The notes under the pieces were generated by a model. The model was not told the DNA's origin and searched no databases. It was given only the letters and a program-made list of their open reading frames with translations. The translations under genes were made by a program, and so were the position numbers. Below, in pieces: positions 36,012 through 42,831 of a stretch of 64,000 nucleotides of DNA (its first letter is position 1; each line of letters opens with the position of its first letter). This DNA comes from Cohnella herbarum. GTDB lineage: Bacteria; Bacillota; Bacilli; Paenibacillales; Paenibacillaceae. The stretch covers positions 5,301,501 through 5,365,500 of the forward strand of contig NZ_CP051680.1 of assembly GCF_012849095.1 (NCBI RefSeq), written 5' to 3'.

Positions 36012-36430
36012 CGCTCCACCAACGCTTTAGTCCTGGGATTAGACCGCTCTCAACGACTTATAGCACACTTTTCCTCGGTTTCCGACCAATTAGACTGCCC
36101 TCAGCGGCTTGCAGCACACTTTTCCTCGGTTTCCGACCATTTAGACCGCTCACAGCGGATTACAGCACTTTCGCTCAGAAAGCCGGTTTTCGGGCCGATT
36201 CCGGCTCACTATAGCTCACTCCAGTGCTCCACCCAACTCTATAGTACCGGATTTCAGCACTATAGCCACCTCCAGCGCTCCGCCCAACTCTATAGTGCCA
36301 GATTTCAGCACTATAGCCGCCCCCAGCGCTCCGCCCAACTCTATAATGCCAGATTTCAGCACTATAGCCACTCTCCGCGCTCCACCCAACTCTATAGTGC
36401 CAGATTTCAGCACTATAGCCACCTCCAGCG
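36012..36430. repeat. 51-bp tandem arrays C and B
   Basis: Two linked arrays. In the first, GCAC-anchored units start at 36063, 36114 and 36165 (51 bp apart), with a diverged unit before them. In the second, units start at 36219, 36270, 36321 and 36372 (51 bp each), with a partial unit from 36423; each holds a 9-bp inverted repeat, CTATAGTGC and GCACTATAG, around 9 nt. Shared CTC-AGYGCTC-like parts suggest common ancestry. The arrays lie between the potA promoter and the 3' end of the bmrD-like gene. Confidence 0.93.
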
Positions 36431-36484
36431 CTCACGTCCGATACTTTTATGAAAACAGAACAGATATATTGACCGGAGTAGTTA

Positions 36485-40921: not shown

Positions 40922-40953
40922 AAAAAAGGCCTACCGCCGTAAGCGATACGCCT
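40922..40953 (-). terminator. second attenuator terminator before bmrC
   Basis: The minus-strand hairpin at 40927-40953 has an arm of about 10 pairs with one mismatch and two G-U pairs around a 5-nt loop, then TTTTT (40922-40926). It lies 138 bp before the bmrC ATG. Confidence 0.75.
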
Positions 40954-41030
40954 CCAGAATGGGGTTTCCCCATCCCTGTCGCGCTCGGAGCCGAACCGAT
41001 CCTAGGATCGCCACAGCAACCGAATGCGAT

Positions 41031-41068
41031 AAAAAAGGCGCACGATTACGTCACCGTAACCATGCGCC
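41031..41068 (-). terminator. first attenuator terminator before bmrC
   Basis: GGCGCATGGTTACG pairs with CGTAATCGTGCGCC (minus strand, 41068-41055 and 41050-41037; two G-U pairs) around a 4-nt loop, followed by TTTTTT at 41036-41031. Its 5' arm contains GGTTACG, complementary to a segment of the leader ORF. Confidence 0.9.
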
Positions 41069-41108
41069 TCACTACGTCATCCAAGAGAATCCGCTATTCT
41101 CCGGTTGC

Positions 41109-41198
41109 TTAGTGATTGTTCGCGAGAGGGTTACGTCCATGACTAGCATTGATTCCGACAATAGGCAGATGGGACATATTACTAAATCCGTTACTCAT
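41109..41198 (-). CDS. leader peptide controlling the bmrCD-like operon
   Basis: A 29-residue ORF starting MSNGFSNMSHLPIVGI and ending NNH, with the strongest possible ribosome site (AAAGGAGGG, 8 nt before the ATG). It plays the role of bmrB in Bacillus, a leader whose translation controls readthrough into bmrCD; the two share position, not obvious sequence. Within it, CGTAACCCTC (41135-41126) can pair with GAGGGTTACG in its own ribosome site (41211-41202) or, by CGTAACC, with the 5' arm of the first terminator (41061-41055). A ribosome stalled early on the leader would hide the ribosome-site segment and free the antiterminator. Confidence 0.82.
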   Translation of the reverse strand: MSNGFSNMSHLPIVGINASHGRNPLANNH

Positions 41199-41239
41199 GT
41201 TCGTAACCCTCCTTTCCGTTCATCAAAGTTATATTTGTC

Positions 41240-41269
41240 ACTTTACCATCGCCCCCCAAATGCTGTCAA
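41240..41269 (-). promoter_or_regulatory. promoter of the leader/bmrCD operon
   Basis: On the minus strand TTGACA (41264-41269) and TAAAGT (41240-41245) are separated by 18 bp, about 42 bp before the leader ATG. Confidence 0.8.
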
Positions 41270-41388
41270 CGGGCAAAACGGAAAAAAATATAAGTTTTTT
41301 ACATTCCCTCATTCCCAGGCTATTCCTTCCAATGTTTGCGCCGGCATACTCTCTGGGTAACATGTATAGAACGACGGAGGTGGTTGAC

Positions 41389-42831
41389 GTGACAATGGCC
41401 CCAAGCGAGGATCCCTTACTACGAAAGGCGATATTTCAATTCCTATACCCATTCGCGCTCAAGAGAGATTGCCAGAACCGGATGCGAGAAAGCCTGCTTA
41501 CGGAAAAATACGTCGATTTTCAATTGGGAAACCTGGAAATCGAGGATCGGTTCTACGGACCGGACAACCGCGTCTCCCATCGCGATATGGAGAGGTATTT
41601 TCTGCCTTTCACCAACCATGTTCTCTTTCCGAACCGGGATGACCCCGAAGCGTTCCGGCGACTAACCAAATCCAAGAATATTCAGGCCGCTCTTCATACT
41701 CGCCATATGACCCTCCCGTTCACCGTTCACTCCGTCGATGTGTTCCTCTGTCCTTTTGATACCGGCTTTCTAACTTTGCGAGTAGAAATCGATGCGGATG
41801 CCGAGCTTACTTACGGCCGGGCATTGGAATTCGCGGACCGGATGCGTCATCTGCAGGATACGAATAAGCCGGATCTTCTTACGTTCGTCGAAGCGGACGG
41901 CAATCGTTACGAGGAAATCGAAAATTTCGTTTTTCAAACGGTGGCTCCTCATGTTCTGCCGTTCTTGGATCGTTCGCAAATGGAAGAAGCGCACTTCGAG
42001 AAGCTGCCCTTTTTCGTGGACGAAAGAATGTTCGTGATCGGGTTTTGCGCATTCGCCGAAGATTGCGATATTTCGCTGCATGACCGCTATCGCGCGGGAC
42101 GGCTGGACGGATTGGGCTTGGATGGCCATCCGAGGATCAGCGCGAGCCATAAGCCGTACATAGAAAAATATTGCGAGACGTTCGGATACGACCGCTGGGC
42201 TCCTAACACTTATTATTTAACCGGCGAAACCAGCTACGTCTGCCTCACCCGCGAGAAGACGGAGATTTCGAACCGATTGGCCAATCAAATGTACGGAGAG
42301 TATTACTACGGACTTCTGCTTAACCTGTTTCACCGAATCGTCTTGCTGAAGCTGTCCATCGCTTATTCCAAGGTTCAGTTGGAACGCAAGCAGGAGCATA
42401 CGGAAAATCTCATTCGGGACATTACTTGTTTTTCCGCCAAGTATTATTTTGTCGAGATCGTCTCGCAGACCGAAGGACGGGAAATTTTCCACCAACTGAA
42501 GAAAGTCTATGGTAACGACGACTTGTTCGAAGACGTGAAGCAGACGTTACAAGATCTCTTCAAATATCAGGAGACCCATGCCTCCAAGCAATCCAGTTAC
42601 CTGCTCACCATCCTGACCATCTATACGGTCATTAGCGGAATATACGGCATGAATCAGGTTATCGAGGATCTGGAAGGAAGCTTCGACTGGTCTTTCTTAG
42701 CCGGCTATTCGGCATTCCAATGGATTGCCTTCGGCGTCACCTTCACCGGGCTGACCGTCGCTTTCCTGCTCGTCATCGGCGTCTTGTGGAAGTGGGGGCG
42801 GGATTTCGTTCGGCGGCGCAGGAGAAAATAA
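41389..42831 (+). CDS. CorA-like membrane protein with GMN motif
   Basis: A 480-residue protein with a long soluble N-terminal part and two C-terminal membrane segments (about 402-420 and 440-464). The first ends in GIYGMNQV, with G420-M421-N422: the GMN loop is the selectivity signature of CorA/Mrs2 magnesium channels. A basic tail (VRRRRRK) follows the second segment, as in CorA. The helical region before the pore (NRLANQMYGEYYYGLL, LFEDVKQTLQDLFKYQETH) fits the CorA stalk. The N-terminal 300 residues do not look like standard CorA. The start is a GTG at 41389 with GGAGGTGG; the frame is open upstream from 41149. Confidence 0.65.
   Translation: MTMAPSEDPLLRKAIFQFLYPFALKRDCQNRMRESLLTEKYVDFQLGNLEIEDRFYGPDNRVSHRDMERYFLPFTNHVLFPNRDDPEAFRRLTKSKNIQAALHTRHMTLPFTVHSVDVFLCPFDTGFLTLRVEIDADAELTYGRALEFADRMRHLQDTNKPDLLTFVEADGNRYEEIENFVFQTVAPHVLPFLDRSQMEEAHFEKLPFFVDERMFVIGFCAFAEDCDISLHDRYRAGRLDGLGLDGHPRISASHKPYIEKYCETFGYDRWAPNTYYLTGETSYVCLTREKTEISNRLANQMYGEYYYGLLLNLFHRIVLLKLSIAYSKVQLERKQEHTENLIRDITCFSAKYYFVEIVSQTEGREIFHQLKKVYGNDDLFEDVKQTLQDLFKYQETHASKQSSYLLTILTIYTVISGIYGMNQVIEDLEGSFDWSFLAGYSAFQWIAFGVTFTGLTVAFLLVIGVLWKWGRDFVRRRRRK

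Follow-up and report, generated by a model that had tools for sequence, protein, structure and literature searches.

The window analysed here is a stretch of 64,000 nucleotides from Cohnella herbarum (contig NZ_CP051680.1, positions 5,301,501 to 5,365,500), and its minus strand carries, immediately upstream of the exporter genes bmrC and bmrD, a short leader whose position matches that of the bmrB-type leaders. We read it as a ribosome-mediated transcription attenuator in which the first ribosome on a short leader open reading frame (ORF) decides, by its state, whether bmrCD is transcribed, and we give this reading a probability of about 0.87. The elements are in place, they are conserved and covary among relatives, and in computed folds the RNA switches with the position of the ribosome before the last arm of the first terminator (T1) is made. 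A mechanism of this kind is already known; the variant lies in the switch arm, which is the leader's own Shine-Dalgarno (SD) sequence, and in a peptide that is largely free to drift. The first-pass annotation of this DNA had placed a promoter, a 29-codon ORF, two intrinsic terminators (T1 and T2), bmrC and bmrD on the minus strand, and all of them are where it put them (Table 1).

Exclusive pairings and their conservation

Segment 1, at the leader SD, and segment 2, inside the leader ORF, are perfectly complementary over 10 bp in the window, and segment 2 is also perfectly complementary over 7 bp to segment 3 in the 5′ arm of T1, whose 3′ arm is segment 4. The pairings 1:2, 2:3 and 3:4 are mutually exclusive and make up an anti-antiterminator, an antiterminator and a terminator, as in bmrB-type leaders. 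These segments and their partners had been proposed in the first-pass annotation, and both coordinates and pairing are borne out: none of 5000 dinucleotide-shuffled versions of the 186-nt leader contained a 10-mer with a perfect downstream partner and a further 7-base partner. In the window 1:2 resumes beyond a small internal loop, where CAT pairs with the start codon. Scanning for terminators gave 3 sites, where shuffles gave 0.5 +/- 0.7; the promoter-like site, of which 1 was found and 1.2 were expected, does not by itself exceed chance. The leader ORF ends 38 nt ahead of the T1 stem (41109 versus 41070), and its frame does not cross the terminator. A conserved, structured 5′ leader with terminators might also be a ligand-binding riboswitch or a T-box-like element, which we consider barely credible here, given that Rfam yields no match at the gathering threshold over the whole window nor at E<=1 over 581 bases, that the pairings account for the conserved letters, and that segments 1 and 2 overlap with the leader's SD and ORF, respectively.

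Relatives were collected through BmrC because a query with the leader peptide recovered few of them (at E<=10 it matched in 49 of 295 genomes, and of 30 loci inspected most were unrelated sequence). Specifically, BmrC was searched in 295 genomes of the family Paenibacillaceae, and the regions upstream of the 30 best matches (L031-L060) and of 60 chosen farther away (L061-L120) were inspected. The TTGACA, the SD with segment 1, the leader ORF, segment 2 and T1 are all present in 30/30 of the nearest bmrC orthologues, where the exact TAAAGT occurs in 26 and T2, by a simple pattern, in 28. The T1 pattern is found in 66 of the 90 upstream regions, and alignment A1 comprises 64 sequences, from which L076, whose SD escaped the pattern, and L092, for which a wrong SD had been chosen, are excluded. 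A T2-like hairpin and T tract lie downstream of T1 in 57/64 homologues; the hairpin between leader stop and T1 is predicted in close homologues with altered sequence and is weak or absent in many of L064-L120. Among the 24 farther loci that lack the T1 pattern, the SD-to-leader-end pairing reaches z<=-3 in four (L085, L102, L110 and L116), no candidate leader ORF was found in six, and GTG-start leaders show visible pairing, yet not better than shuffles. A pattern scan of contigs (79 stretches) also picked up unrelated bacteria, whose hits are presumed to be chance or repeats.

A covariance model, R1, built on the 64 loci of A1 matches in 116 of the 295 family genomes, 12 of 19 genera and 37/37 genomes of the window's genus, Cohnella; 64 of the 116 supplied model sequences and match by construction. 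The matches in 111 genomes stand at E<=1.4e-8, 47 of them outside the model-building set, and the 23 strong matches checked by eye against the BmrC search all lie upstream of bmrC. The other five (G014, G064, G092, G116 and G243) are weak, and that of G092 is on a different contig from its bmrC. In G265, contigs C33 and C34 hold four partial R1 matches, each of 116 bp and all of equal score (E 1.7e-10), which are probably copies of a repeated element whose terminator is similar. Among the matches listed from the open-licence literature there is no account of this leader in Paenibacillaceae.

Across A1 the mutually exclusive pairings are supported, most strongly 1:2, as judged from comparative sequence. 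Standard pairs fill 92.2% of the cells of 1:2, against 30-44% when the arms are slid, and the column pair 9:160 changes on both sides from G-C to A-U in 26/64 sequences (GGGTTACG/CGTAACCC versus GGATTACG/CGTAATCC). For 2:3 the figures are 99.3% against 20-36%, with two-sided changes in seven sequences at one pair, and for 3:4 standard pairs reach 99.6%. Because kinship of the sequences can mislead covariation counts, we also compared the duplex energy of each sequence's own arms with that of arms exchanged between species in 5000 permutations. The mean for 1:2 is -20.6 kcal/mol with own arms and -17.3 with swapped ones, with 0/5000 permutations as good; for the extended 2:3, in which CGTAAYCC and GCG(C) a few bases on pair with GCGC AT GGTTACG, the entire 5′ arm of T1, it is -19.4 versus -18.0 kcal/mol (0/5000; by subset, 6/5000 within L031-L063 and 0 within the remainder). 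The non-partner control 1:3 gave 1881/5000 overall. The alignment for covariation that the first-pass annotation had called for supports its pairings.

It is worth considering here whether the leader serves mainly to control its own translation, 1:2 hiding the leader SD and T1 and T2 being constitutive and simply lowering read-through. Consistent with this, 1:2 is stronger than 2:3 by the means above and includes the start codon in 49/64 sequences. We nonetheless regard it as very unlikely, as 2:3 is conserved and pairs better with own than with swapped arms, 1:2 does not include the GCG(C) that follows segment 2, and the sister system of Bacillus subtilis is a transcription attenuator by experiment (PMC4191407).

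A predicted ribosome-dependent fold and a peptide largely free to drift

The 64 sequences were folded up to the T1 loop, that is, with arm 4 absent, while the region blocked by a ribosome was varied. Without a ribosome 1:2 dominates in 58/64, and in 49/64, among them the window, the start codon has its partner immediately upstream of segment 2. With a ribosome on the SD, start and first codons 2:3 dominates in 61/64, and with one at the leader stop 2:3 is found in 2/64 and 1:2 in 43/64. For the window itself the probability of 1:2 is 1.0 without a ribosome, and that of 2:3 is 0.99 with the start blocked, 0.0 at the stop and 0.0 at codon 12. The prediction from these models is that the position of the ribosome sets the fold before the terminator is complete. 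Folding with and without an early ribosome had been suggested together with the four-segment logic in which 1:2 plus 3:4 terminates, 2:3 antiterminates and a ribosome near the start frees segment 2; comparative sequence, covariation and constraint folding all support that logic.

The leader may then work as follows. If no ribosome is loaded, the SD region would pair with segment 2 once the latter is made, T1 would form and transcription would stop. In a normal run the ribosome would soon clear segment 1, and with the ribosome at the stop or departed, either 1:2 would form or segment 2 would be covered, so that T1 forms again. A ribosome held in the first codons would cover segment 1 and leave segment 2 free, and the free segment with its GCG(C) would pair with the T1 5′ arm before arm 4 is made, letting the polymerase read through, presumably past T2 as well, into bmrCD. 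Because the leader's own SD serves as a switch arm, the gate would need one ribosome to be loaded, and because 1:2 covers that SD, translation of the leader would shut itself off. The signal would be "initiated but slow" whatever the peptide, and therefore inducers should be found among the drugs that stop the ribosome early in elongation; antibiotic induction in this genome would be expected on the same grounds.

The peptide itself is consistent with such a gate. Leader ORFs of 20-38 codons contain segment 2 in 64/64 sequences and end 13-48 nt beyond its start, and their residues are hypervariable. Segment 2 is read in frame 0 (R-N-P-type codons) in 49/64 and in frame 2 (V-I/T-type) in 15/64. 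Given this variability and the two reading frames of segment 2, it is the RNA rather than the peptide that appears to be conserved, and we infer that selection has acted on the RNA more than on the residues. The first-pass annotation had held that a lack of conservation in relatives would speak against the attenuator; the ORF and the pairings are kept, and the peptide sequence is not. Attenuators of the trp type, which respond to amino acids, use the same four-segment, mutually exclusive pairing; the run of codons for a single amino acid that marks them is missing from the window's leader, which has no such run for any amino acid.

Alternatively, a drug-specific arrest peptide of the ermC or RLR type might stall the ribosome through its nascent chain, the RNA pairs merely following. 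The presence of a leader ORF in all 64 aligned homologues would fit, as would the many leaders that open with M-x-N. Against this stand the absence of any residue motif, RLR or ermC-type arrest motifs included, across the full set of listed leaders, the two frames of segment 2 with their RNP or V-I/T endings, and a ratio of nonsynonymous to synonymous differences (pN/pS) far above that of bmrC: pN is 0.240 and pS 0.416 for the leader (18 close pairs, not independent), and 0.01-0.07 and 0.28-0.68 for bmrC in ten such pairs. We therefore consider an arrest peptide unlikely. NCBIfam has no match for the 29-residue peptide of the window.

Several observations weigh against a ribosome-gated attenuator indifferent to its peptide. 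The leader pN/pS is about 0.6 rather than 1, so that some constraint on the peptide is possible, and one subclade, a subset of L064-L080, keeps MIVP or something near it at codons 5-8 of otherwise variable leaders; both points would also suit an arrest peptide. The outermost two pairs of the 10-bp 1:2 are unpaired in 10/64 and 30/64 sequences, hence only about 8 bp are conserved. Covariation in 2:3 is confined to one pair, and its counts of pairs and types do not exceed shuffles; the 1:3 control favours own partners within L064-L120 (48/5000), a mild lineage effect. In the folds, 2:3 forms without a ribosome in 4/64, and a ribosome at codon 12 yields it in just 11/64, so that in most sequences an early stall alone works. 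Furthermore, in full-length RNA with arm 4, T1 wins in 64/64 both without a ribosome and with the start blocked, and antitermination must therefore be kinetic. Finally, T2 is conserved and no pairing that opens it has been established for the window, a segment 2:T2 pairing having been considered and left unproved.

Table 1. Features of the probable attenuator leader and the exporter genes, in coordinates of the window.
Feature	Position	Strand	Remark
Promoter: TTGACA 41269-41264, 18-nt spacer, TAAAGT 41245-41240, TG preceding the -10	41240..41269	-	read from letters
Leader SD (strong) AAAGGAGGG	41207..41215	-	SD region in 30/30 close orthologues
Leader ORF: ATG 41198, 29 codons MSNGFSNMSHLPIVGINASHGRNPLANNH, TAA ending 41109	41109..41198	-	
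Segment 1 GAGGGTTACG, 5′ arm of anti-antiterminator, overlapping leader SD	41202..41211	-	partner is segment 2
Segment 2 CGTAACCCTC, partner of either 1 or 3	41126..41135	-	
GCG 3′ of segment 2, lengthening the antiterminator towards GCGC in the T1 5′ arm	41121..41123	-	duplexes; own versus swapped 0/5000
Hairpin spanning the last leader codons up to the T1 base; presumably a spacer or pause hairpin	41069..41115	-	predicted
Segment 3 GGTTACG, T1 5′ arm, antiterminator partner	41055..41061	-	
Terminator T1 (3:4) and T tract; hairpin 41070-41037, then T6	41031..41070	-	
Terminator T2 and T tract; hairpin 40953-40928, then T run	40922..40953	-	
bmrC-like ABC half-exporter, 583 aa	39032..40783	-	
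bmrD-like ABC half-exporter, 674 aa	36955..38979	-	

Around these features, a divergent gene with a weak, below-cut-off CorA-like match (41362-42831, plus strand) starts about 90 bp from the leader promoter, and an ORF of near-repeats (SAEIWHYRVGWSAGGGY...) at 36175-36435 points to a tandem DNA repeat in the stretch that separates bmrD from the next operon. The same genome holds a second, SmdA/SmdB-like exporter pair (G000:C1:4952616-4956130), and in the region upstream of that paralogous pair (L328) no such attenuator leader was seen.

Leaders of other families and the frame of bmrB

Across the class, R1 matches 23 of 398 genomes, the window's own included, and some of these matches are false. 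Of 19 loci inspected, six (L209, L213, L217, L219, L220 and L226) were judged false, and the remaining 13, from families f23 and f15, are each followed by a BmrC-like ORF; in f23 alone 21/39 genomes match at E<=1, some doubtfully. Family f23 presumably resembles Brevibacillus, and f15 we take from gene order to be Bacillaceae, apart from locus L308, which is placed by its match to bmrB. When BmrC matches were sampled (30 loci from each family and 20 more from f15), a fixed rule gave a leader with a good SD in 70/80 upstream regions. It gave none in ten (L261, L265, L267, L269, L271, L275-L277, L282 and L287), of which L275-L277 are 54-55% matches that may be paralogues, and the leaders picked at L315 and L272-L274 are doubtful. 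The SD and start region pairs with its own leader's 3′ end better than with the ends of other species (0/5000 in both f23, 22 leaders, and f15, 48 leaders), and since the letters differ between genera, this pairing has been kept through change. The own pairing energy falls below all 50 shuffles in only part of the leaders (10/22 in f23, 31/48 in f15), so single loci are not always significant. Many of the Bacillaceae loci L278-L327 also have a second tiny ORF with an SD, ending tens of bases before bmrC, of varying residues and with a frequent ending EGG, KGG, ESG or DSG; it may couple translation to bmrC.

Published work on the B. subtilis leader reports that the bmrCD attenuator depends on translation of the leader and that it reacts to chloramphenicol, erythromycin and lincomycin, and assigns bmrB to a 53-codon GTG frame that crosses the terminator (PMC4191407). 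Locus L308 (genome G701) reproduces the numbers published there: its GTG ORF measures 162 bp and stops 119 bp short of bmrC, and positions 136 and 140, in the terminator mutated in that study, are both C (PMC4191407). Within L308, an ATG behind AAGGAGGG opens a different frame of 23 codons, MPRNLRVYQTVSYWRGKPFVLFS, whose SD region GGGTTTGC pairs with GCAAACC near the end of the ORF. This ORF, unlike the published frame, ends before the terminator, and a frame running through the terminator may therefore not define bmrB-type leaders. In the six loci that share the SD string of L308 (L308, L311, L313, L316, L320 and L327) the ATG frame is open in 6/6, with 23-32 codons; the GTG ORF has, in the same order, 53, 16, none (GTA), 27, 52 and 53 codons, and in L313 a more upstream TTG still opens the GTG-type frame for 49 codons.

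When the ATG region is blocked in the fold, the leader's CAGTTTCAT pairs with ATGGAGCTG in the experimentally tested terminator in L308 and L313, and in L310 CAGCTTCA pairs with TGGAGCTG. L310 shows the same pairing with a ribosome at the stop too, so that of these three loci L308 and L313 alone switch clearly. By position, the terminator proved by experiment in L308 appears to stand at the place of T2, and L308 has a T1-like hairpin without a T tract; L312 has both.

On this comparison of frames, the 23-codon ORF fits better than the published bmrB ORF, and the published frame may be wrong. The B. subtilis start mutant also altered alternative starts or ribosome-binding sites in the 5′-UTR (untranslated region), and hence the published tests do not separate the frames (PMC4191407). 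The in-frame fusion to the published frame gave no detectable signal on the chromosome and a signal on a plasmid (PMC4191407); the latter suggests some translation of that frame and counts against a simple reassignment. A 2021 review keeps BmrB at 54 residues (PMC7828314). Among the matches listed from the open-licence literature there is no account of a different bmrB frame. Going further than the attenuator itself, we think it somewhat better than an even bet that these leaders are peptide-blind "initiated but not finished" gates in which mainly RNA geometry is selected, that they represent ancestral bmrCD control in Bacilli, and that the published BmrB is misframed, the true leader being MPRNLRVYQTVSYWRGKPFVLFS.

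Comparison with known systems and implications

We assume the Listeria gene lmo1652 to be a relative of BmrC. The closest, B. subtilis bmrB-bmrCD, has the same operon, a leader ORF and the same anti-antiterminator, antiterminator and terminator set, and differs from the window in letters, leader length and the position of the antiterminator: its tested terminator corresponds by position, as we infer, to T2, whereas the antiterminator of the window is predicted on T1 (PMC4191407). The first-pass annotation had judged the window's leader, despite a similar logic, to be unrelated in sequence to bmrB; the letters do differ, and the architecture is the same if the 23-codon ORF of L308 is used in place of the published one, its SD pairing with the 3′ end of that ORF just as the window's leader SD does with its own leader. 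In Listeria, too, translation inhibitors induce attenuators that control ABC genes, Rli59-lmo1652 and Rli53-lmo0919; for Rli59, whose details are said to be missing, the reported inducers are lincomycin, erythromycin and chloramphenicol, and Rli53, compared by description, differs in having a three-residue ORF (PMC8079631).

In the B. subtilis vmlR leader, too, stalling on an upstream ORF (uORF) blocks an anti-antiterminator and lets the antiterminator form; the three-residue uORF there lies inside the anti-antiterminator with its SD single-stranded, and there is an extra hairpin that hides the SD of vmlR itself, a different protein (PMC9226507). The rli80 leader of hflXr shares an antiterminator freed by a stalled ribosome, and has a 14-residue ORF with an RLR arrest motif, whereas the window's family has no shared peptide motif (PMC6310831). 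The toiL uORF of topAI in Escherichia coli is a proposed sensor of several classes of ribosome drugs for which stalling anywhere suffices, although it acts on topAI translation and Rho termination rather than on an intrinsic terminator (PMC12121999).

What had been an observation in one species hence becomes a family with covariation support. A peptide-blind leader would explain a response to several unrelated ribosome drugs with nothing in the peptide needed, and the leader's own SD offers a role for the anti-antiterminator that was left unclear in the 2014 B. subtilis paper. Likewise, the annotation of the bmrB reading frame becomes directly testable.
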